A stretch of 45,330 bases of DNA, taken from positions 1-45,330 of the IMG/VR virus record IMGVR_UViG_3300035187_001643; one strand, written 5' to 3'. This stretch comes from a virus. Of the stretch, positions 1,808-35,151 are shown piece after piece (position 1 is the stretch's first letter; each line of letters starts with the position of its first letter). Below the pieces are notes generated by a model. That model was not told where the DNA came from, did no database searches, and saw only the letters and a program-made list of their open reading frames with translations. The position numbers were made by a program, and so were the translations under genes.

Positions 1808-2128
1808 CTACAGACCAGTGCAAGCCGTTCCTGCGCGCCGCTTCCGCTTCGACATGCGGCTTGTTGTCGCCTCGACAGGTTCTTTCCGCATACGCTCCAA
1901 ATGCTTTGCGCGGATCTCGGCTTTCCGCTCCTCGATTTGCTCTGGCGTCGGGTCTTCAGCGTCGCGGTGGCAGACACGCTGCCGCTTCGGAAGCCTGTGA
2001 AGCGCCTTCAGCTTGTAGATCATCGCAGGCGTCGTTTGCAGACGCTTCGCGATCTCATCCACGTGAAGACCTTCCACCCAAAGTTGGAACAACTCTGGAA
2101 TGGATACGTGCCAGTGCCGTTCTTCCAT
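1808..2128 (-). CDS. helix-turn-helix protein
   Basis: 106 aa; the ATG overlaps the TGA of the sliding-clamp gene (ATGA). Residues about 8-45 (LFQLWVEGLHVDEIAKRL followed by TTPAMIYKLKALHRLP) form an HTH of the kind found in GcrA-like and resolvase-like domains. The C-terminus is strongly basic (MSKRKRRAG) with an acidic-basic helix before it. Likely binds DNA, as a regulator or a replication accessory factor translated with the clamp. Target unknown. Confidence 0.7.
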   Translation of the reverse strand: MEERHWHVSIPELFQLWVEGLHVDEIAKRLQTTPAMIYKLKALHRLPKRQRVCHRDAEDPTPEQIEERKAEIRAKHLERMRKEPVEATTSRMSKRKRRAGTACTGL

Positions 2129-3237
2129 CAGTCAACCGCCAGCGGCATGATGACACCAACGAAATCGTCGCAGCGGAGCACGACAGCCGACTGTGCGTCA
2201 GTCGCCTGGACGCTCACCGTTGGTTCGCCGTCGGCGGGAAGGCCCGTCAACCACTCACGGACAAACACCGGGTCGAGTTTCACGCTTGTCGCGTGTCCGA
2301 ACTCAACGATGTCGCACGTGACGGACGATTCGCCAGCCTCGGCAGACTGACCGTGCAGGTGCAGCCCGTCCTTCGTGATCGTGTACAGCACTCCCTTGCT
2401 GTTCTCGCTGGTGACGATCGCCGCCGCTCGAGTCGCAGACAGCAGATCCGCCGCAGTGATCGTGGACGGCTCCGCGCCCTCAGCCGGGATCACGTCACGC
2501 CACTTCGGGAATCGCCCATCGGTCAGCCTGGCCGTCACCGTCGTGCCGCCGATCGTCGCCACCAGTGCATCCTTCGTCGCCTCCAGCTGCACGCTGCCGT
2601 CCGTCTCGCTGCCGGCCAAACGGCACAGGATCGCCATCACTCGGCTCGGCACGAGCGTCTGCGAGTCATCAACCGCCAGGTCGTGCTCACACTCGCAGGC
2701 CGCCAGCCTGCGGCCGTCAGTCGCCACAAGCGTGACAATCTCGCCCTTCACGTCCACAAGCACCGCACCCAGAGCGTAGCGGCTCGACTCGACATCGGCG
2801 GCGTAGGCCACGCCACGAACCGCACGGGCGAACTGGTCAGCCGGCAGGCGGGTGACCGGCTTTTCGCCTTCAACCTCCCACGACGGGTACTCCGCGGCAT
2901 CCTCCACCGGCAGCGTCCACGTGCCGTGTCCTGCGGAGACAACGCAGGACGTGCCGTCAGGCGCGAGCGTCACCGTGTCGCCGCCAGCGGCGTTGAGGAT
3001 CGCCAGCAGCCTCTGATGCGGCAACAGGATTGTGGCCCCGTGGTAGTCGATCGCCACGTCGATCCTCACCTCGAGGTCCGTTGCCGTCAGCAGGCCGTCG
3101 CCCAGGCGAACGTTCTGCAGGATGGGTTTCGGTCCGCGAGCGATCGCCGGTGCCACAGCCTGCAGGGCCGCCCGCATTTCACTTGCCGCCAGCGCGGTGC
3201 CAGTAGTCCGCTTTCGTTCCTTCGTTGCCGTTGCCAT
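2128..3237 (-). CDS. dnaN: DNA polymerase III beta subunit-like sliding clamp
   Basis: 369 aa from the ATG at 3237, preceded by AAAGGA; this is the normal clamp length (about 365-380). The three-domain plan is visible. Domain 1 has PKPILQNVRLGDGLLTATDL. The middle has TLPVEDAAEYPSW, then the hallmark VATDGRRLA. Domain 3 has DGRFPKW, then SENSKGVLYTI, and ends VGVIMPLAVD where host clamps end near VMPMRL. The clamp encircles DNA and tethers polymerase. It sits between a small membrane protein and an HTH gene, with no polymerase or loader recognised nearby, so it probably recruits host enzymes or replaces the host clamp. Confidence 0.92.
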   Translation of the reverse strand: MATATKERKRTTGTALAASEMRAALQAVAPAIARGPKPILQNVRLGDGLLTATDLEVRIDVAIDYHGATILLPHQRLLAILNAAGGDTVTLAPDGTSCVVSAGHGTWTLPVEDAAEYPSWEVEGEKPVTRLPADQFARAVRGVAYAADVESSRYALGAVLVDVKGEIVTLVATDGRRLAACECEHDLAVDDSQTLVPSRVMAILCRLAGSETDGSVQLEATKDALVATIGGTTVTARLTDGRFPKWRDVIPAEGAEPSTITAADLLSATRAAAIVTSENSKGVLYTITKDGLHLHGQSAEAGESSVTCDIVEFGHATSVKLDPVFVREWLTGLPADGEPTVSVQATDAQSAVVLRCDDFVGVIMPLAVD

Positions 3238-3349
3238 TTGTCGAGTCCTTTCGATTAGAGAGAGCCACACCAACCACGATGCCAAGAACGAACGTCAGGG
3301 CATTGAGACTGAAACCTGCGCAGATGAGCGTGAGTTGTGAAATGGTCAC
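3179..3349 (-). CDS. small single-span membrane protein
   Basis: 56 aa from a GTG at 3349 with GGAGG six bases upstream; the GTG overlaps the preceding TGA (GTGA). One transmembrane segment (LTLICAGFSLNALTFVLGIVV) is followed by a polar tail (NRKDSTNGNGNEGTK). The 3' end overlaps the first 59 bases of the clamp gene. The strong start signal supports it despite the overlap. Function unknown. Confidence 0.6.
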   Translation of the reverse strand: MTISQLTLICAGFSLNALTFVLGIVVGVALSNRKDSTNGNGNEGTKADYWHRAGGK

Positions 3350-3537
3350 GACCGCGCCTCCTTGCGTTCGAGTTGTTGTGCGAGCCGCACACACCGAGCC
3401 ATCAGCAGGCGAATCGTGTCCGCTGACATCTCGAGGAGCAGCCGGCTGTCATCGTCAATGTGGTCGCGCCACGCCTGGATGGCGCACATATCCGCAACGA
3501 CGCTTGGTGCCGGAAGTTCGTAAGGTGCATCGCTCAT
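3346..3537 (-). CDS. small hypothetical protein
   Basis: 63 aa, coupled on both sides (ATGA with the LexA-like gene, GTGA with the membrane protein). Mostly helical: IQAWRDHIDDDSRLLLEMS and TIRLLMARCVRLAQQLERKE, the latter a possible coiled coil. No recognised domain. The tight packing supports it being a gene; role unknown. Confidence 0.6.
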   Translation of the reverse strand: MSDAPYELPAPSVVADMCAIQAWRDHIDDDSRLLLEMSADTIRLLMARCVRLAQQLERKEARS

Positions 3538-3770
3538 GCGTCACCGCCTTCCACCACTCGCATGGTGCGCCCACGGCCCGGTTCCATGGCTATCGCGCCG
3601 GCTTTCACCAGCCGTGAAATCAGCCCCTGCACGTTGTTCACGTTGCATCTGAAGTGCGCCGCCATCTGGCGATACGTTGGCGGGTAACCGTGCGCCTGCA
3701 CAAATCGATTGATGTACGCCAGCACGCTGCGCTGCCGGGGGGTGAGGTTTTTTGTTGCTGTGGTGGTCAT
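3534..3770 (-). CDS. LexA-type winged-helix protein (no peptidase domain)
   Basis: 78 aa from the ATG at 3770 (ATGA with the upstream gene). Residues 9-70 match the LexA N-terminal DNA-binding domain: LTPRQRSVLAYINRFVQAHG, PPTYRQMAAHF, then a recognition helix NNVQGLISRLVKAG and a basic wing (EPGRGRTMRVV). The S24 autoprotease half of LexA is absent, so it cannot self-cleave. Likely a transcription factor or accessory to the replication protein encoded just upstream. An in-frame opening to 4055 lies inside the neighbouring gene and is ignored. Confidence 0.8.
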   Translation of the reverse strand: MTTTATKNLTPRQRSVLAYINRFVQAHGYPPTYRQMAAHFRCNVNNVQGLISRLVKAGAIAMEPGRGRTMRVVEGGDA

Positions 3771-4606: not shown

Positions 4607-5123
4607 TTTCCCAAATCTCCTGAATGCTTCTCAATGCTTCGCTTGGAACTTGAAAGCACGGCGGACGTTTTGGGTCAGGCCGCCCTTCCCACTCGTGCCT
4701 TTTTGCGTCTCGTCCGTAAATCCATCCGTGAATCTTGTGTCGACGAAATGGAGTGCCGGTTACATGCACGTACTTCCATTCGTCATGAGCATCGGGCCTG
4801 ACGATGAGAAGCGATTCGTGCGATGGCCTCGTTTTAATGTCGATGTTCGGCGAAAAATCTGGCCTTCCAAACACATCAACCGAGCAATCCCAGTGCCGAT
4901 CTGTTGCTTTTGCAAATGCTTGTTCGGCGCACGCACCGTTCATCTGCACCTTCCAGCCGTCGCTGGCGTCTGCGTCAAACCCATAAGTGTCTTTTGAGCC
5001 CCTGGCGAGGCTCTTTATCTGCCGCATCAGCCCAACAAAGCAGGCGGCAAGCGTCTCGTGATTAGTGAGCCTTACTTCAATCAATGGCGCTGTTTGTGTT
5101 TGTTCCATGACATTAGGAGTCAT
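4596..5123 (-). CDS. hypothetical protein with possible PD-(D/E)XK motif
   Basis: 175 aa; start at 5123 (ATGA), with MEQTQT at 5108 as an alternative. Centre: GRPDFSPNIDIKTRPSHESL (about residues 86-105), then VTGTPFRRHKIHGWIYGRDA. A Pro-Asp, then Asp-x-Lys after a short strand, fits a PD-(D/E)XK nuclease core, and the GWIYGRDAKR segment recurs in phage proteins I have seen annotated only as hypothetical. An upstream Glu (residue 67, CAEQAF) could complete the site. A nuclease is plausible but unproven. It lies between the primosome-like protein and the methyltransferase. Confidence 0.55.
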   Translation of the reverse strand: MTPNVMEQTQTAPLIEVRLTNHETLAACFVGLMRQIKSLARGSKDTYGFDADASDGWKVQMNGACAEQAFAKATDRHWDCSVDVFGRPDFSPNIDIKTRPSHESLLIVRPDAHDEWKYVHVTGTPFRRHKIHGWIYGRDAKRHEWEGRPDPKRPPCFQVPSEALRSIQEIWENGR

Positions 5124-6394
5124 ACGAGCATTCCTTGCCCTTGTTGTCGCTGTGCGACTGTCATCCCTAACAGCCGCGTTTCGCCCAGCCAGACTTGGCT
5201 TTCACGGGCGTCGATTCCGACACCGTTCCTGCCGTGCTTTACGGCCATAGAAACGGTTGTTCCAGATCCGCTAAACGGATCGAGCACGACACCGCCTGGC
5301 GGGCAAAAACTTTTGATGAAGAACTCTGCCAACCATTCTGGAAACGGGGCTTCGTTTTTTGTGGCATCGCGCCACCCCATGCCGCCACTGCCGACCAGGC
5401 CGCTGATGACGTTGCCGGGGTTGCAAACCTCTGGATCAACGTAGACAGCTTGCTTGCGACTGCCGTCCTTGTTGCGGTTGGTCGCAACCCTTGGCACGTT
5501 TTGCTTTGGCGGCTGGCCCATAGCGGTGTTGTTAGCACCAGATATTCGGCCGTTTTTCGTACCGCAAATGATTGGCTCCCAGTCATTACGCAACCAATCT
5601 GGGCCGCCCGTGCCAGGTATGCCGTTTCTCTGATAAACAACGACCTTTCGCATCTTCACGCCGCGACGATGCAGGTCGGCGTGAAGCAGAAACGGCGTCG
5701 ATGTGTAGGCGAAGTCGTCGGTGTAACCCTCGACAACCCACGCCACCAGCCCTTTGGACACACGCAGGCATTCCATGTAGCAGTCGGTTGCCCATGCCAC
5801 CCAGTCCTCACCGGCAAGGCTGAACCCAAGCTCGCCATATGACCTCTGCGACTCGTAAGGCGGTGAGCAAAAGACCAAGTCGAAGTGGTCGTCGGGGTAT
5901 GGCAACTTGCGGCAGTCGCCGACCTTGAACTCCCACGACACTTCGCCCTTCGTGCCGCTGGCCTCGGCTGCTGTTGGCGCGGCCGCGATGCTGCGGCGTT
6001 GCTTCTCCTCGCGCAGCTGCTTGACGGTCGCTCTGGTCTCCTCAGCCCACGCCAGTAGGTCGGCGGCCTGGTCGTGGTTGGCGACTACGCGATGATGCGA
6101 CCACTCCAAATGGTCGGAACGTTCCGACCTTTCTGGGAAAGCGGCAGCCACCCACGCAGAATCCTTCGCCGTCTGGTACGCGATCCCGAACCGCTCGCAC
6201 GCCTCGGCCAACTTGCCGCGCTCAACGTAGCCCTCGCGATCGCCGGCGTTGAGCCAGTCGCCAATCAGCCACATCAGCCCTTTTTGATAGCGGGCGATCT
6301 CGTGGCCTGCGGCCTCCCACAGTTCAAGCGTCCAGCCGTCGCGAACGACGAGGCCAATTGGCGTGAGTTCATACCGAGTGCTGCACTGTTGCAT
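5120..6394 (-). CDS. DNA methyltransferase (N4/N6 amino type) with helical N-terminal domain
   Basis: 424 aa from the ATG at 6394, preceded by AAAGGA. Residues 155-410 form a beta-class amino-methyltransferase. Motif IV is SPPY at 177-180 and comes before motif I DPFSGSGTT at 372-380; a variable target-recognition stretch lies between. SPPY is the form commonest in N4-cytosine enzymes. Residues 10-135 (WTLELWEAAGHEIARYQKGL, then MWLIGDWLNAGDREG and LEWSHHRVVA) resemble the LmbU-like or ParB-associated helical DNA-binding domain. It probably protects phage DNA or marks sites for the adjacent ParB-like protein. No cognate endonuclease was recognised with confidence. Confidence 0.85.
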   Translation of the reverse strand: MQQCSTRYELTPIGLVVRDGWTLELWEAAGHEIARYQKGLMWLIGDWLNAGDREGYVERGKLAEACERFGIAYQTAKDSAWVAAAFPERSERSDHLEWSHHRVVANHDQAADLLAWAEETRATVKQLREEKQRRSIAAAPTAAEASGTKGEVSWEFKVGDCRKLPYPDDHFDLVFCSPPYESQRSYGELGFSLAGEDWVAWATDCYMECLRVSKGLVAWVVEGYTDDFAYTSTPFLLHADLHRRGVKMRKVVVYQRNGIPGTGGPDWLRNDWEPIICGTKNGRISGANNTAMGQPPKQNVPRVATNRNKDGSRKQAVYVDPEVCNPGNVISGLVGSGGMGWRDATKNEAPFPEWLAEFFIKSFCPPGGVVLDPFSGSGTTVSMAVKHGRNGVGIDARESQVWLGETRLLGMTVAQRQQGQGMLV

Positions 6395-6785
6395 CGCAAT
6401 CCTTTGCGTTTGTCGAAGTGAATGTCTTGGTATCTTGGCAGTACGACACAGACTTGCAGCGTCGCCTGCATGTGGAGCGAAAATCGTTGAACAGGCGGCA
6501 GATACCCCTGCTGTACAGCCGCTCCGCTTCTTGCTCGGTGATCTCCACGCCTTGCAAAAAACGCACGCCGCAGTTTTGTGATGGATCTTCCAAATCACGC
6601 TGGGCTGCCCTGGCAGCGTCAGCCGCCGCGTACCGTATGACGTATTCCCTTTTGTAGGAGTCGCAGATATACGCCATCACGTCAGGCTCTCCACACATGC
6701 CCTTCGTATGCAAACACCACCTAACAAAGTCAGAAAACGACCTTGATCCGGGGTTCCTTGTCGTGTTTTTGCTGTTCTTCTTCAT
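6369..6785 (-). CDS. Cys-rich hypothetical protein
   Basis: 138 aa from the ATG at 6785, which overlaps the ParB-like TGA (ATGA); its end overlaps the methyltransferase start by 26 bases. It holds about nine cysteines spread along the chain, including CRRRCKSVSYC near the end, and a helical middle (AAADAARAAQRDLED). No family recognised. It is flanked by ParB-like and methyltransferase genes in one transcript, so a DNA-related role is a reasonable guess only. Confidence 0.55.
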   Translation of the reverse strand: MKKNSKNTTRNPGSRSFSDFVRWCLHTKGMCGEPDVMAYICDSYKREYVIRYAAADAARAAQRDLEDPSQNCGVRFLQGVEITEQEAERLYSRGICRLFNDFRSTCRRRCKSVSYCQDTKTFTSTNAKDCDATVQHSV

Positions 6786-7863: not shown

Positions 7864-8196
7864 TCAACGCGACGCCGCCGTGACTTGCCACACGCTCGCG
7901 TTCCGTTTCGACGCCGTCTTCCTGACGCCGGCTTCAACCACCATGCCACGCCTTACAAGTTCGATCCGCCGCGGTCGCGCCGTGCTGGGGTTCATGCTCA
8001 AGCCGGCTGCGATCTCTTCGTCAGTCGCTGGCCCGTGCTCGCGGAGGTACTCGAGGACCAGGCGGTGCAGCCGGTTGAGCGTCGCGCCACCCAGCGAGTC
8101 CGCAGCTGCGGCGCTGGTGGCAGAGCCACGCACGCTGGGGGCGGGTGTTGAGAACAGCGGGCCGTAATCAACACGCTCGGAGTAGTAGTCGCTCAT
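7864..8196 (-). CDS. winged-helix regulator
   Basis: 110 aa; AAGGAC lies upstream of the ATG at 8196. A polar N-terminus (MSDYYSERVDYGPLF) precedes a winged helix at about residues 42-108: LHRLVLEYLREHGPATDEEI, SMNPSTARPRRIELVRRGMV and a wing RNASVWQVT. This resembles MarR/DprA-type wHTH modules often seen in phage early operons. Target unknown. Confidence 0.65.
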   Translation of the reverse strand: MSDYYSERVDYGPLFSTPAPSVRGSATSAAAADSLGGATLNRLHRLVLEYLREHGPATDEEIAAGLSMNPSTARPRRIELVRRGMVVEAGVRKTASKRNASVWQVTAASR

Positions 8197-9660: not shown

Positions 9661-9897
9661 TCAGTGCGTGATGTCCTGCGGCGAAACCGACAGCCACGCG
9701 CCGTCGCATTCGATCGCCAGCCAGCCCCTGTCGCAGGCCATGACGTGGCCCGACCAACGCTTGCCGCAGGTCAAGCCGCTGACGAAGTCGCCAACGGCGG
9801 GTTCGCCTCTCGACCGGCTGCGCGGCGTCTGGTCGTGGATGCCGGCGATCGCTGCGAGGTACTCGTTTTCGTTGGGGCTGCTGGGATTCGTAATCAT
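9661..9897 (-). CDS. small hypothetical protein
   Basis: 78 aa from the ATG at 9897; GGAGA lies about 10 bases upstream, in a CGGAGACGAAAACGATG leader nearly identical to that of the 10679..10885 gene. The C-terminal half (GDFVSGLTCGKRWSGHVMAC, then WLAIECDGAWLSVSP) reads like a small SH3-type beta barrel. It is the first gene after the promoter cluster at 9931-10063. Function unknown. Confidence 0.6.
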   Translation of the reverse strand: MITNPSSPNENEYLAAIAGIHDQTPRSRSRGEPAVGDFVSGLTCGKRWSGHVMACDRGWLAIECDGAWLSVSPQDITH

Positions 9898-9930: not shown

Positions 9931-9958
9931 ACTGTACAGCCGTATATCAGTGCGTCAA
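9931..9958 (-). promoter_or_regulatory. leftward sigma70-like promoter
   Basis: On the minus strand: -35 TTGACG (9958-9953), 16-bp spacer, -10 TACAGT (9936-9931). The -10 overlaps the palindrome CTGTACAG (9932-9939), a possible operator. Transcription would begin near 9924, about 27 bases before the ATG at 9897, and would drive the early operon. Confidence 0.6.
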
Positions 9959-10007
9959 GCGGGGGGACCAACAAAATGAGGGGAGTCCTTACGGCCGTAC
10001 ACTTTTG

Positions 10008-10063
10008 GAAATAGCTTCGGCGTTAGAAAAGGGCAAGGTAGCGACGGCGTTAGAACCTGTCAA
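10008..10063 (-). promoter_or_regulatory. tandem leftward promoters, each with a TTCTAACGCCG box
   Basis: Upstream promoter: TTGACA (10063-10058), 17 bp, TACCTT (10040-10035). Downstream promoter: TTGCCC (10036-10031), 17 bp, TATTTC (10013-10008). The word TTCTAACGCCG lies inside each spacer, at 10055-10045 and 10028-10018. A spacer position is typical of a repressor operator. The -10 boxes are weak alone, but the repeated layout supports function. The first box also contains the stop codon of the 10050..10202 gene. Confidence 0.5.
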
Positions 10064-10202
10064 CGGGGAAAACCGAAGCCACACTGGCAAGCAATGCCAG
10101 CAGGTCGTGGACAACTCGAGCGGCTGGCGAATCGGTGCCGAGCTCCTGGCCGATGCGTACCAGCGTCAGAGCGGTGATGGCGGCGTTGTAGTGGCGTTTC
10201 AT
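10050..10202 (-). CDS. small hypothetical protein
   Basis: 50 aa from the ATG at 10202, with GGAAGG seven bases upstream; an in-frame codon at 10283 has no such site. Helical: AAITALTLVRIGQELG and VVHDLLALLASVASVFPVDRF. No recognised family. Its TAA stop lies inside the operator-like box of the next promoter. Confidence 0.5.
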   Translation of the reverse strand: MKRHYNAAITALTLVRIGQELGTDSPAARVVHDLLALLASVASVFPVDRF

Positions 10203-10299
10203 CGCAATGCCTTCCGTGGCTGAAGAATCCTGTGTGTAAAGTGCCACCCGTTTCGCAACTGTCGGCAGGCCGGATGGCGCCACCCTTGGGCGGCGTAAA

Positions 10300-10614
10300 T
10301 CACGCAGGCTCTACGGCATCAACTCGCCCGCAACCGCCGCTTTCCGCTGAGTGAACGTGCGTCAGGTTGCACAGGCCAGCAACCTCGGCGGCAACGTCAT
10401 CTTTTGCCCACATGCCACGGCCGCACCAGTCGGTGTAATCGTCGGCCCGCCGCTCGTCATCGGCCTCGCGGGCGGCGAAGCCGGAGTTGTCGAAGTGACT
10501 CTCCTCGACAACGTGCCGGTAGGCACCGTCATCAAACACGATCCACTGCTGCCCGCCGTGAGCGGCGCGGCCGATCACCTTCAAGTCAAAAGCCTTTGCT
10601 GCACTGATGCTCAT
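10300..10614 (-). CDS. small hypothetical protein
   Basis: 104 aa from the ATG at 10614, with AGGAGA seven to eight bases upstream. Begins MSISAAKAFDLKVIGRAAHG and QQWIVFDDGAYRHVVEESHF; the middle is acidic and Arg-rich (READDERRADDYTDW). No recognised domain. Part of the control-region gene cluster. Confidence 0.6.
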   Translation of the reverse strand: MSISAAKAFDLKVIGRAAHGGQQWIVFDDGAYRHVVEESHFDNSGFAAREADDERRADDYTDWCGRGMWAKDDVAAEVAGLCNLTHVHSAESGGCGRVDAVEPA

Positions 10615-10643
10615 CGTTTGTTCTCCTAGTCTCATGGTAGTGA

Positions 10644-10667
10644 CCCGGCGGCGAAGTTGCCGCCGGG
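10644..10667. other. strong intergenic hairpin
   Basis: Perfect 9-bp stem CCCGGCGGC / GCCGCCGGG with loop GAAGTT, between the stop of the 10679..10885 gene and the ribosome site of the 10300..10614 gene. No T-run on the leftward side. Candidate attenuator or RNA-processing site that would lower expression of the distal genes. Confidence 0.5.
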
Positions 10668-10678
10668 CTGGTTAGCGG

Positions 10679-10885
10679 TCAGGACATTGCGGCGTAAAGC
10701 TCATCGCAGAACGCAACGAACTTATCAACGGGCAAGCGGCGCTCAAGGACTGCTAGGGCTGCATCGCTCACGATCCCTGCGTGGCTGGTGTAGTCGCGAG
10801 CCAGTTTGCAGCAGATGTCCACCAGAGCATCGGTCGTCATGGCTTCGAGCTTTGCGTTCAGAGCGTTCTTGATTTCGGCGTTCAT
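10679..10885 (-). CDS. small helical hypothetical protein
   Basis: 68 aa from the ATG at 10885 with GGAGA upstream. All-helical: MNAEIKNALNAKLEAMTTDA, LVDICCKLARDYTSH and VLERRLPVDKFVAFCDEL. I have seen similar short sequences in phages, but with no function. It is the first gene after the strongest promoter of the control region (10937-10964), so it is probably expressed early and under repression. Confidence 0.6.
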   Translation of the reverse strand: MNAEIKNALNAKLEAMTTDALVDICCKLARDYTSHAGIVSDAALAVLERRLPVDKFVAFCDELYAAMS

Positions 10886-10936
10886 CGTTTCGTCTCCGGT
10901 TCGTGCCCCGCGAGTCTCATTCGCTCGCATGGGTGT

Positions 10937-10964
10937 ATTCTAGCTTCGGCGTTAGAACAGTCAA
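10937..10964 (-). promoter_or_regulatory. leftward promoter with operator-like spacer
   Basis: -35 TTGACT (10964-10959), 16-bp spacer, -10 TAGAAT (10942-10937): the best sigma70 match in the window. The spacer contains TTCTAACGCCG (10957-10947), the word repeated in the tandem promoters near 10 kb. A 17-bp stretch (TTCTAACGCCGAAGCTA) is identical here and at 10028-10012. Transcription would begin near 10930. Confidence 0.65.
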
Positions 10965-10988
10965 GGGGTTAGAAAAGATTTTTTCGGA

Positions 10989-11003
10989 CCCGGTTTTTCC
11001 GGG
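10989..11003. terminator. possible weak terminator after the HTH gene
   Basis: CCCGG-TTTTT-CCGGG, 15-20 bases past the stop of the 11024..11260 gene. On the leftward transcript it is followed by an A-run and then TCTTTTCT, not a clean U-tract. It would separate the HTH gene from the promoter at 10964. Confidence 0.35.
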
Positions 11004-11023
11004 GGAAAGCGGGGCTGGGAAGG

Positions 11024-11260
11024 CTAGTTGGCCTTGAACCCGCCTGGAGGCCGTCCGGTTTTCCGCTTGGCCTTGGCCCGCTTGCGGATTTCGGCCTCGT
11101 CAAAGACTCGCGCGGTTGGCGCAGCCAGCCATGACTGAATCCCGCCGTCAGCCGGGTCCAGCAGGGCCAGCTGCCGAATGCGGCCCATACTAACGCCGAG
11201 GATTTTGGCAGCCTCTGCGGTGCCAATCAGCTTTCGACCTTCTGGTAGTGCCACGACCAT
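11024..11260 (-). CDS. MerR/excisionase-type HTH protein (candidate switch regulator)
   Basis: 78 aa. Residues 11-30 (KLIGTAEAAKILGVSMGRIR) are the HTH of the MerR/AlpA/excisionase superfamily. A VFDEAEIRKRAKAKRKTGRP tail is basic, as in DNA-bending proteins. It diverges from the integrase, the classic place for an excisionase or a small repressor. Its promoter (11267-11294) would start transcription at about the ATG itself, and an operator-like box overlaps that promoter, so autoregulation is likely. Ribosome site is poor (TTTGGGGC). Excisionase and repressor roles cannot be told apart from sequence. Confidence 0.7.
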   Translation of the reverse strand: MVVALPEGRKLIGTAEAAKILGVSMGRIRQLALLDPADGGIQSWLAAPTARVFDEAEIRKRAKAKRKTGRPPGGFKAN

Positions 11261-11266
11261 GCCCCA

Positions 11267-11294
11267 AATCTAACGCCGGAGATAGCGAAGTCAA
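11267..11294 (-). promoter_or_regulatory. promoter of the HTH gene with overlapping operator box
   Basis: -35 TTGACT (11294-11289), 16 bp, -10 TAGATT (11272-11267). The expected start falls near 11260, the A of the ATG, so the mRNA may be leaderless. The box TCTAACGCCG lies on the + strand at 11269-11278, across the -10: the same word as in the leftward promoters, in opposite orientation. A one-mismatch copy (TACTAACGCCG) lies inside the gene at 11188-11198. Confidence 0.55.
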
Positions 11295-11418
11295 ACTGTC
11301 CGCCCAGCACGCCCAACCAATCCCCCTAGACAGCCCAAACTGATTGCCTGTCTGGACATCTGGGAGAATGATGAGGTGTACGCTCGTAAGGACTGGAGGC
11401 GGCTCCGGTCCTAACACC

Positions 11419-11438
11419 TGTACATGAACATGTGTACA
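11419..11438. promoter_or_regulatory. dyad element upstream of the integrase
   Basis: TGTACA-8 bp-TGTACA, with a perfect inner dyad ACATG-AA-CATGT (11422-11433), 24 bases ahead of the integrase ATG. TACACT at 11435-11440 could be its -10 box, although no good -35 is visible. TGTACA also occurs in the early promoter at 9932-9939. Candidate operator controlling integrase. Confidence 0.45.
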
Positions 11439-11461
11439 CTAGTGGAAAAAGGAGGCTGCCG

Positions 11462-12376
11462 ATGGAACCGATGACGCTGCGCGAACTGCTGGAACGCTAC
11501 CGAGACTTGAGAAACCTGAGCGGGAAAACTGCCTCGCTGTATGACCAGCTGCTAGACCGCCTAGGAGCGTTCCTAGGACACGAGCCGACCGTGGCCGACC
11601 TAGATGACTTGGTCATTAGTCGATACCTCCGAGAGCGTGCTACGCACTCGTGGGCGGGCAAGCCGATTCGGCCGGCAAGCGTGCAGAAAGACAAGGTGAT
11701 GCTTGCCGCCGTGTGGAACTACGCCGCCCGCAAGCGTTGGGCGAAAGACTTTCCAGAGTTGCCACGCATCAAGGTGCCGCAATCCATCCCACTGGGCCGG
11801 GCCTACACGTCGCACGATGTGGCCGCCATGATCCGGCAGGCTTTGAAGCGTCGCGGGCAGACAGGCGGGCAGCCCAGCTGCTGGTGGTGGGCCACGCTCC
11901 TCTACATGGGCTACTGCACCGGAGAGCGTGCCGAGGCGCTGAGGGCAGCCAGGTGGCAGGACATCGACCTAGAACGGCGGCGGGTGCTGTTCAGAGGCGA
12001 GACACGCAAGGGATCGACCCGCGACATCGAACGCGACTTCACGCCGGAACTGGCAAGGCTTCTGGCACCGCAGCGGGGGCAACCGGAGGATCTCGTCTGG
12101 GTTTGGGACCGATGCCGCGGGAGCCTCTGGACGAGCCTCAAATTGCTCTGCAGGCAGGCCAACGTGAAATACCGGGGCTTCCACGGGCTCAGGCGTACAC
12201 GGGCGTCCTACGCTGCCCTAGCGGGTGGCACGGCCGCTGCGACTCTGGTGCTCGATCACAGCGATCCGAACCTGCAGCGGGTATATGTCGATCCCACGAT
12301 TTGCCCTACGGAACAGAGCAGCGTGGATTGCCTGCCGGTGCTGGACCTAGACGGGCCGGGAAAGCCGGCGGCTTGA
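11462..12376 (+). CDS. int: tyrosine recombinase / phage integrase
   Basis: 304 aa from the ATG at 11462, with AAAGGAGG six bases upstream; a GTG at 11432 is less likely. The N-terminal SAM-like core-binding domain is at about residues 1-90 (LRELLERYRDLRNLSGKTAS). The catalytic domain has Arg in TGERAEALR, Lys in ETRKGSTRD, His and Arg in HGLRRTRAS, His in LDHSD and the nucleophile Tyr in RVYVD: the complete R-K-H-R-H-Y set. It joins phage and host att sites. It is the first gene of the only rightward unit. The attP core cannot be identified without the host sequence. Confidence 0.95.
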   Translation: MEPMTLRELLERYRDLRNLSGKTASLYDQLLDRLGAFLGHEPTVADLDDLVISRYLRERATHSWAGKPIRPASVQKDKVMLAAVWNYAARKRWAKDFPELPRIKVPQSIPLGRAYTSHDVAAMIRQALKRRGQTGGQPSCWWWATLLYMGYCTGERAEALRAARWQDIDLERRRVLFRGETRKGSTRDIERDFTPELARLLAPQRGQPEDLVWVWDRCRGSLWTSLKLLCRQANVKYRGFHGLRRTRASYAALAGGTAAATLVLDHSDPNLQRVYVDPTICPTEQSSVDCLPVLDLDGPGKPAA

Positions 12377-32670: not shown

Positions 32671-33721
32671 CCGCAAGCATCCCTTCAACGGAACCCGCAT
32701 CGAGGTCCACAAGCCACGCTTCGGCGTCTCGCACGCCAAACGACGCCACTACGCTGCTGCCGGTGATCGCAAGACCAGCGGCGAACTCAATTGTTCGCAG
32801 TTCGCGAAACGCGAACGGCAGCGACCACCGCTTGAGCGTTAGCGAATTGTCCAGCCATACCCAGCGGTGTTCGTAGACCCTGTGGCCGCCGTGCGCCACT
32901 TCGTGTATCAGCCCGAGCCATCCGCCACGGAATTGCACCAACTGCGAGCCACCACGGAACTGGCTGCCAATCTGCGGCGCCGGCGACCGGCGGTGCATCA
33001 GATACGCACCACGCAGCGACGGGTCAGCGTCCACCGTGACCGTGTGGCCGGCGTGGCTGACGGCGTAGACCCAACCATCGCATCCCTGTAGCGGCATCCA
33101 GTTTTTTTCATGCTGCTGCAGCGACAGGCAGTCCAGCATTCGCAGGCCTGTGAACTCGGCACGGTCAACGTCCAGATCGGCAATCCCAATCCGGCAGTCG
33201 CCGTTGAGCGGCGCCGCATCGCGGACCGTGGCGGAAACACCTATACCCGCTTGGGTCTGCCGCAGCCGGCAGTCCTCGAGCCCATCAACCGGATACTCGG
33301 TCCGGTGGTACTCCGGCCCGGCTATCGGCCGACAGTCGGCCACGGTCAAATCGGGCCGCAGGCGAACCAGAAGATTCTGCGTGCGGATTGTGTCGCCGTC
33401 TTCCGGCGGCATCACGTATCTGCCATCCACGATCCGGTAGTTGCTCGAGCGGACCACTGCGACCAGGCCGCCGCAGTCTGCAATCGTCGGATTGAAGCAA
33501 GACCAGCCGGGCTGCGCCGGCTCAACGTCAAGCCGAACGAAACGGCACCCAGCCAGTTCCTCCAGCGGCTGCGTGTAAAACGTGCGGTTCACCCTAGTCT
33601 GCATTTCCATTTCCTGCGGCAGACCGGGCAGAGACAGCAGCCGTTCGCATGACCGGCGGCCAGCGTCCAATTCGCCTGCGTAGAAGGCGTGGACGCTCAA
33701 TGCCGCTAGGTGCTGGATCAT
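32648..33721 (-). CDS. GH130/GH43-like five-bladed propeller protein
   Basis: 357 aa. Starts with a short TPR-like helical pair (1-55), then the propeller: FNPTI (76-80), GLEDCRL (147-153; usual GLEDPR), EKNWMP (205-210), FRGGSQLV (255-262), LIHEV (271-275), and the final VVASFGVRDAEAWLVDL. These are the landmarks of GH130-type mannoside phosphorylases and related sugar-active or sugar-binding propellers. The usual Pro of GLEDPR is Cys here, so activity is uncertain. Coupled to the adhesin gene upstream by ATGA. Confidence 0.75.
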   Translation of the reverse strand: MIQHLAALSVHAFYAGELDAGRRSCERLLSLPGLPQEMEMQTRVNRTFYTQPLEELAGCRFVRLDVEPAQPGWSCFNPTIADCGGLVAVVRSSNYRIVDGRYVMPPEDGDTIRTQNLLVRLRPDLTVADCRPIAGPEYHRTEYPVDGLEDCRLRQTQAGIGVSATVRDAAPLNGDCRIGIADLDVDRAEFTGLRMLDCLSLQQHEKNWMPLQGCDGWVYAVSHAGHTVTVDADPSLRGAYLMHRRSPAPQIGSQFRGGSQLVQFRGGWLGLIHEVAHGGHRVYEHRWVWLDNSLTLKRWSLPFAFRELRTIEFAAGLAITGSSVVASFGVRDAEAWLVDLDAGSVEGMLADAAPADR

Positions 33722-35151
33722 GGCGTGAAGGTCAAAACGATGTCATCGCCAGAGTCGGACAGCGACCACGTGCCGCCATCCAAATCGTTGTTGTTCGTGA
33801 ACTCGCTGGCGTCGATCGTGAACTTGTTGGATGCGAACCCTGCCAGCGTACCGGCCGTGGCAATCGTGAACGACTTCGATGTTGTGTTGTCAAAGTTGGG
33901 AACGGCACCGGAGACGTTGCCGGAAGTCAGCCCAACCAGTTTGATCGTGAACGTGCTGCCGCTGGTGGCCGTGATCGACAGGTCATCGCCTGACACAACC
34001 AGCTGGGCAAAGCCGCTGCCAGCAGAACCCGTCCAGTTGTTGATTTGCCAGCGATAGGTGCCGCCACTGGCAAGCGTTAGGCCGGCTGAAAACGCTTGCG
34101 ACCCGACAGGATCGCCGGGTGAAAGCGTGGCATTCGCTCCAGCCGTTACGGCCGTTGCGATTTCGCTGGAACCGGAAATCGTCCCGCTTGTGAGCGTCAC
34201 AGGCGAAGCCAAGGCAATGGAACCTGTGTGCTTGAGAACTGCACCGGCGCCATTGATCACCACGGCCGCGGCAGTTGGAATGTCACCGCTGCTGCCGTCT
34301 ATTTGCAGCGTCCCATAATTGACCGTTACCGTTCCGGTCGTTGACACGTCCCGTGTCAGCCTGACAGTGCCAGTGTTGCCAGACGATCCAACGGCAATGT
34401 CCACGTCTGGGTAGCCGTCGCCTGTGTAGTTGTTCCACACAGCGTCAAAGACAACCGTGCCGCCGGTAGCTGCCTGGAGCGTCACGTTGCGGCCTACGAG
34501 AATAAATGACGATGACGACCCGACCGTTGCGGTTCCTGACGTGCTTTCTCCACCGATCACGACGGCCTGGCTCGAACCCGCCCCGCCTGCTGGAATCTGA
34601 ATCCATTTGGTGAGCGTCACGCCTGCGGCAACCAGCAGCGCAGCAGTACCGGATGCACCAGCAGAATCATCGCCAAGAATGACTGCGGACGACTGCGCGC
34701 CAAATGCGCCTGAACTCGGCAGCGTGTTTGCTCCCACAGCAATCGTCCCATCAAGGATTGACGTTGAGCCGCTGTAGGTGCTGGAGCCCGTTAGCCGCCA
34801 CTTGCCTGCCCCTGACTTCACAAAAGAAATCGGGTTTGCCAGCGGCGCGATGCCAGCAAACGAATTTCCTGCCGTGCTGCTTCCACTAAGCGTCAGCGTT
34901 TTGGCGCCGCTGCCTGTGGCAGTCATTTGCGCCGTCAGGACCAGTGCGCCAGAGCCAGAAGCATCCAGCGTGGCGCCGCCACTGGTGCCTGCCATGTTGA
35001 ACACACGGGACGTGGTGTGACCGCTGCCGGTGTAAAGCACGGTTGCCGAGCGGCTGGCGCTGCCGACGTTGATCGTGGCTCCGTCGCTGCCGTCAAAAGC
35101 TATAGAGGCAGGAACGACAAACCGGCTGAACAGACCGGCCTTGCCTCTCAT
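33718..35151 (-). CDS. PATR-type beta-helix adhesin (virion protein)
   Basis: 477 aa, rich in Gly, Ser, Thr and Ala. Repeated blocks such as [19 protein letters not shown] followed by [14 protein letters not shown] match the autotransporter-associated (PATR) strand repeat, which builds a parallel beta-helix. No signal peptide or barrel is present; a helix-forming phage fibre or spike is the natural reading. ATGA-coupled on both sides, between the collagen-like fibre and the glycan cassette. Confidence 0.7.

Follow-up and report, generated by a model that had tools for sequence, protein, structure and literature searches.

The window analyzed here is a stretch of DNA of 45,330 bp that corresponds to positions 1 to 45,330 of IMG/VR virus record IMGVR_UViG_3300035187_001643. 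It represents a temperate-looking tailed phage from freshwater, with genes for portal, capsid, terminase and tail proteins, a RecT-type annealing protein, a RusA resolvase and a tyrosine integrase. A DNA polymerase III beta clamp, an N4/N6 DNA methylase and a PATR-repeat protein are also phage-borne (2128-3285, 5120-6598 and 33718-35151). An Rfam search of the window gave no match. The region of interest lies beside the integrase gene, and its genes, predicted promoters and predicted operators are as follows.

11462..12376, plus strand: tyrosine integrase gene (phrog_1, E 1e-29; Pfam PF00589), divergent from the HTH gene
11267..11294, minus strand: promoter P_HTH, -35 TTGACT (11294-11289), 16-nt spacer, -10 TAGATT (11272-11267)
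11270..11285, plus strand: predicted operator O_HTH, CTAACGCCGGAGATAG, position matrix (PWM) score 25.7 bits, kept in relatives
11024..11260, minus strand: HTH gene (protein P0001, 78 aa), modeled as a BldC/Xis/MerR-like winged helix, candidate operator binder
10964-10974, minus strand: candidate auxiliary half-site, TTCTAACCCCT, a degenerate second copy upstream of and touching the P2 -35
10937..10964, minus strand: promoter P2, TTGACT-16-TAGAAT, upstream of the 10679-10930 ORF
10940..10955, minus strand: predicted operator O_P2, CTAACGCCGAAGCTAG, 28.6 bits, the top PWM match in the window
10300..10635, minus strand: ORF between P2 and PL, without a match in the family search
10050..10283, minus strand: ORF ending in the PL region, with homologues across HTH types
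10035..10063, minus strand: promoter PL1, TTGACA-17-TACCTT
10038..10053, minus strand: predicted operator O_PL1, CTAACGCCGTCGCTAC, 25.0 bits
10008..10036, minus strand: promoter PL2, TTGCCC-17-TATTTC, in tandem with PL1
10011..10026, minus strand: predicted operator O_PL2, CTAACGCCGAAGCTAT, 26.3 bits
9931..9958, minus strand: promoter P4, TTGACG-16-TACAGT, upstream of 9661-9897 and the RecT gene

Searched alone, P0001 had no family match at the curated cut-off. Weak matches were obtained to phrog_66 'excisionase and transcriptional regulator' (E 0.015) and to HTH_17 (E 0.02), and relatives of P0001 matched the excisionase domain model TIGR01764 weakly (2e-5 to 3e-4, below cut-off). The AF2 model of P0001 is a winged HTH with a pLDDT of 83. 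Its top structural matches are BldC (Z 7.8) and Pukovnik Xis (Z 6.5), followed by SoxR and other MerR proteins, and it matches RdfS with a Z of 5.5; Z values below 8 are in the common range and give the fold class, not the function. By this model the fold of P0001 is that of a BldC/Xis/MerR-like winged HTH.

Homologues of P0001 were found in 37 virus contigs, and a search with the integrase yielded 80 loci. Neither protein had a match among the named phages, where no annotated relative was present. In the genome collection the integrase matched once, to a short contig from a 'Proteobacteria'-labelled MAG, and a search of 289 genomes of Proteobacteria gave no further match. No intact prophage was found. 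The system is not described in the open-access literature that was searched.

The initial annotation had drawn attention to an 11-letter word, TTCTAACGCCG, of which three exact copies would lie in the -35/-10 spacers of leftward promoters. Both the coordinates (10018-10028, 10045-10055 and 10947-10957, all on the minus strand) and the placement within promoters were correct. The expectation for exact copies from composition is ~0.02 per window and the probability of three or more is ~1.5e-6. A longer form, CTAACGCCGNNGCTA, has three exact copies (0.002 expected) and a fourth that deviates at one position; all of them are located at promoters. Random clustering of a word rich in GC could account for the two-mismatch copies, which are scattered through the window and whose number (20) is close to the 11.6 expected from shuffles, but the exact and extended forms greatly exceed expectation and the conservation of the sites at the same promoters refutes this explanation, to which we give practically no weight. 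The recurrence is thus stronger than originally described, whereas the 11-letter length was too short. The complete site measures ~16 bp, CTAACGCCGNNGCTAG, and is kept at these promoters in some 30 related contigs. The conserved unit, CTAACGCCGNCGCTA(G), exceeds the 11-mer, and its right part GNNGCTA(G) extends into the -10.

A PWM was built from related phages only and then scanned over the window, a type of search that the initial annotation had proposed. The four promoter sites ranked first, with 28.6, 26.3, 25.7 and 25.0 bits. The only other match of note was the copy of the word inside the HTH gene (17.9 bits); everything else scored at most 10.5 bits, which is noise level, and nothing above noise was found outside 10011-11285. 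The best scores in simulated windows had a mean of 11.0 and a maximum of 17.1 bits. Equal-quality matches scattered in coding DNA, which had been named as grounds for rejecting the operators, did not occur.

Two of the copies call for comment. The near copy ATCTAACGCCG at 11268-11278 (plus strand) does cover the -10 of the HTH promoter as annotated, and its orientation is opposite to that of the promoter; the corresponding operator, O_HTH, overlaps the -10 plus most of the spacer. The in-gene copy, TACTAACGCCG at 11188-11198 (plus strand), is also present, but the operator role assigned to it did not hold up. It falls on codons for the recognition-helix residues LGVS, and among 36 relatives it is found within one mismatch only in L004 (the same phage) and L038. 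Because of this lack of conservation the copy was rejected as an operator and is judged to be a coding coincidence.

Dyad symmetry is clear in the operators of some HTH types (TTACCGATAGCGGTAA). In the P1 type only 5-6 of 8 pairs match, and in types s3, s5 and s6 the dyad is absent. A perfect 16-bp palindrome for all types was rejected, the dyad being type-dependent and not established for P1. Over nine types, with representatives that were partly chosen, the Fisher p value for dyad symmetry was 2.5e-4. Binding of a dimer to inverted half-sites is offered as a suggestion on the basis of these patterns.

The promoters themselves were examined with a sigma70-type consensus scan of the window, using shuffles as a control. 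P_HTH, P2 and P4 were recovered, three promoters where shuffles would give 0.5. The PL pair is weak and escapes the consensus scan; its -35/operator/-10 layout is kept in relatives, where O_PL1 and O_PL2 are 27-31 bp apart (27 bp in the window). The position of P2 is conserved as well, at about +290 to +300 from the HTH start. The word in P1-type relatives always lies between a TTGAC-like -35 and a TANNNT -10, and nearly all P1-type loci have it reversed in P_HTH, at P2 and in tandem in PL. The integrase promoter is without an operator, the PWM scan giving no site in 11286-11461. The HTH start codon lies six nt after the -10 in the window and 6-8 nt after it in nearly all types, and because of this short distance the HTH mRNA is probably leaderless. 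Judging from the gene order, P2 and PL would be early lytic promoters.

Two further elements occur at P2. The motif TTCT[CA]ACC is kept at the position of TTCTAACCCCT in most P1-type relatives and is not found at P2 of other types; TTCTAACCCCT is a possible auxiliary half-site. The predicted P2 transcript begins with a hairpin, GCGAG-CGAATGAGA-CTCGC (10910-10928, minus strand), that is present in many loci, with 35 distinct sequences from different HTH types. Its stem covaries: four of the five pairs change on both sides, and 96.6% are paired vs 16-47% in slid controls. The loop, CRANTGAGA, is nearly fixed, and the hairpin is absent from Rfam.

The location of the word between -35 and -10 resembles that of MerR-family operators, and the sites could mark a special promoter class that is read by a dedicated sigma factor or a MerR-type activator. 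We regard this as very improbable. MerR-type activation uses promoter spacers of about 19-20 nt, and those observed here, at 16-17 nt, are not elongated. Moreover, the -35 and -10 elements are constant while the word changes with the HTH type, the word is reversed at P_HTH, and the 78-aa protein has no effector domain. A repressor is preferred over an activator because with spacers of 16-17 nt the promoters appear intact without help.

The gene beside the integrase gene falls into about nine HTH sequence types, of which those other than P1 are 41% down to about 18% identical to P0001. These types have a common HTH promoter scaffold, TTTGAC-[16 nt]-TANNNT-6 nt-ATG, in which the spacer sequence is type-specific. 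The spacer of this promoter measures 16 nt in 62/67 and 17 nt in 5/67 cases; those of P2 and PL are 16-17 nt. A word particular to each type occupies the spacers of P_HTH and P2, and often also that of PL. Among the integrase-related loci, the word of the window is present in all main P1-type loci and in none with another HTH type, and the divergent P1b loci L111 and L120 have a variant CTGACG site. With L047-type proteins the promoters of one phage share TTACCG(A/C)TAGCGGTA, and the common promoter words are GGTTCCGATATCGGTA for L042-type, GTAACGCT..CCGCTAC for L078-type and GTAGTTGCGATACTGCTAC for L085-type proteins.

The co-segregation of operators was quantified by comparing promoter with promoter, since word counts over the whole region gave a significant but weak and noisy signal. 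In a permutation test that compares P_HTH and P2 only, the cluster-level trace was 65.7 vs 54.2 +/- 2.3 (0/20,000 permutations); the comparison covers ~70 contigs with related integrases, which are metagenomic and partly redundant, and testing at cluster level lowers the effect of shared ancestry without removing it. P_HTH/P2 pairs of the same type were far more alike than cross-type pairs. The integrase gene, g4, g5, recT and the winged-helix gene at 7864-8196 span HTH types, and of the genes in the region the HTH gene alone follows the operator type. Because the operators co-segregate and swap with this gene, its product is the strongest candidate for the operator-binding protein. The stretch between HTH and PL has a variable set of genes, and an unlisted co-inherited product, rather than the HTH protein, could conceivably track the operator.

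A natural exchange is seen in two phages, L072 with an s5-type and L073 with a P1-type HTH gene. From the integrase gene to 39-52 bp before the HTH start they are 98.75% identical, through the HTH gene and PL there is no detectable similarity, and from P4 on the identity returns to 91.7% and further on to 99.2%. The operator at P2 and next to P4 is AACTACCGATACCG / AACTACCGCTACCG in L072 and TTCTAACGCCGACGCTA in L073, and that at P_HTH differs too, along with the HTH gene. Similar, less sharp pairs involve L043, L045, L047 and L050. The ends of the cassette coincide with promoter boundaries. The HTH gene and its operators are exchanged as one cassette between otherwise near-identical phages.

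These observations also bear on the possibility that the HTH protein is an excisionase (RDF) and that its sites serve recombination. The modeled Xis/BldC-like fold is that of a Xis-like winged-HTH protein, weak excisionase-family matches occur in several HTH types, and the gene adjoins the integrase gene. For known RDFs the targets are direct repeats at att with a spacing of 10-11 bp (PMC7498355). No array of the word is present in the HTH-int interval (11286-11461), where the position of att itself is predicted and low-specificity binding would escape detection. The sites are instead at promoters up to 1.3 kb away, and the integrase side is nearly identical between phages with different HTH types. 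The interval from int to P_HTH is the same whatever the HTH type, which is an argument against the protein binding specifically at att. We therefore consider excision as the purpose of these sites unlikely; a second role of the protein as an RDF with low sequence specificity is conceivable.

Within the same interval, a block of the TTCGAGTGGAGGCGGCGGGAGTCG type (about 11385-11410) is conserved in nearly all loci; since its reverse complement resembles a tRNA or tmRNA 3' end, it probably represents the attP core. In addition, a 19-bp inverted pair, GTGTACGCTCGTAAGGACT / GTGTACGGCCGTAAGGACT (89%), is located at 9984-10002 and 11376-11394, with one copy in the PL leader and one to the left of the att-like block. 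In other phages both places are occupied by matching copies with a sequence of their own.

The promoter P4 has no operator and its sequence is constant whatever the HTH type, so that it serves as an internal control. Since P4 should drive the RecT operon, the HTH protein alone would not silence all early genes. A TAC-rich element, e.g. GAACATGTGTACA or GAACAGGCGTATAGT, lies over the -10 at 9931-9958 (P4) and is also found at 11426-11438, independent of HTH type. The element is similar to LexA-type boxes and could signal a second regulator, perhaps one of the host. The lack of operators at P4 and int, together with this HTH-independent element, indicates that a second regulator probably exists. 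The window encodes a small LexA DNA-binding domain without the protease part (3534-3770, minus strand; PF01726, E 2e-14). This gene is unlikely to be the regulator of P4 and int, as its relatives occur in only five virus contigs.

A second regulator would suit a Cro-like role of the HTH protein, acting on the same operators during lytic growth only and lowering the early promoters after a pulse, with lysogeny maintained by another factor such as host LexA or an unrecognised phage repressor. Like cox and apl, which open their early operons (PMC7498355), the HTH gene comes first in the early leftward cluster, and its promoter is strong and apparently autoregulated. P4 and most integrase promoters share the TAC-rich -10 element, often NNACN4GTAC. 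However, no CI- or S24-type repressor was detected in the subset of window ORFs tested with Pfam, and immunity regions typically show cassette diversification of the type seen here, even if cro also co-diverges. Because the same operators would serve a timer, and a role as immunity repressor is itself only slightly favored, the Cro-like role keeps substantial weight as the less probable of the two.

All sequence evidence agrees with the initial annotation, in which the locus was described as a repressor regulating early promoters and itself: the sites lie in 16-17 nt spacers of promoters that look functional in other respects, they are conserved at the same promoters, and they change and are exchanged with the HTH gene. 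We find the reading of operators, repressor and cassette as a whole highly probable, and an autoregulated early-promoter repressor that is also the heteroimmunity determinant is the most likely form of it. In this model the HTH protein (11024-11260) would bind the ~16-bp site CTAACGCC-GNNGCTAG, which lies in the spacer of 16-17 nt and extends over the 5' portion of the -10. Covering spacer and -10 at the four promoters, it would exclude RNA polymerase. Shut-off of P2 and the tandem PL1/PL2 would repress the early genes, and occupancy of P_HTH would limit the protein's own leaderless transcript, giving negative autoregulation. The exchangeable cassette would extend from the P_HTH -35 to just before P4. 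If cassettes are switched as a unit, a resident phage would fail to recognise the early promoters of another type, which amounts to heteroimmunity. Binding, repression as the direction of the effect, immunity and maintenance of lysogeny are what we infer from the position, conservation, co-segregation and exchange of the sites.

There is an even chance, in our estimate, that this phage group at large uses tiny (about 74-116 aa) Xis/BldC-fold immunity repressors, with at least about nine specificities on one fixed promoter scaffold. Excisionase-like mini winged-HTH proteins are usually regarded as loosely specific DNA benders. The Xis-like fold here seems to act as a highly specific, exchangeable repressor, with operators that fill promoter spacers. 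If this is true, the constant -35, -10 and leaderless start combined with a variable 16-nt spacer operator would constitute orthogonal minimal repressor-promoter pairs, and the loci would offer a direct view of the evolution of heteroimmunity in a large uncultured group of freshwater phages. The dozens of natural pairs, near-isogenic swaps included, can be used to decode how a small fold changes its DNA specificity. They also provide a route to test heteroimmunity without a cultured member and a source of small orthogonal repressor-promoter pairs.

In the lambdoid immunity region cI/cro and their operators are exchanged as one cassette between otherwise similar phages, and the regulator gene and operators studied here likewise move together. 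Unlike CI and Cro, the regulator is one small protein with a modeled MerR/Xis fold, and its gene and int are divergent neighbours, which differs from the lambdoid layout.

Apl of coliphage 186 and Cox of phage P2 are small RDFs that act also on early promoters (PMC7498355). The HTH protein resembles them in being a small Xis-class winged-HTH protein encoded near int by the first gene of the early operon, with a predicted action on early promoters. At att and between face-to-face promoters, Apl and Cox occupy arrays of short direct repeats that are loosely specific and spaced by one turn (PMC7498355), whereas in our phage single specific ~16-bp sites lie in four promoter spacers and none at att. 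Also unlike Apl and Cox, the operator sequence switches with the protein. BldC of Streptomyces and RdfS, a BldC-like protein of a Mesorhizobium ICE for which autorepression by occlusion of the -35/-10 of its promoter has been proposed (PMC11963761), are the best fold matches of P0001. Both form head-to-tail filaments with weak sequence specificity; the phage sites are discrete, and dyad-like in several HTH types.

The Rep proteins of L5 and Bxb1, cluster A mycobacteriophages, are alike in that repressor and operator co-diverge (PMC6550527). In cluster A this co-divergence defines heteroimmune groups, and an operator lies inside the early left promoter (PMC6550527). The phage HTH protein is much smaller than, and different from, the L5/Bxb1 Rep. 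Cluster A phages have 20-30 asymmetric stoperators genome-wide (PMC6550527); here there are four promoter sites and none elsewhere, the PWM scan of the window giving no set of 20-30 dispersed sites aligned with transcription. By analogy with these systems, the locus appears to work like a heteroimmunity cassette built from a Xis/BldC-class protein.
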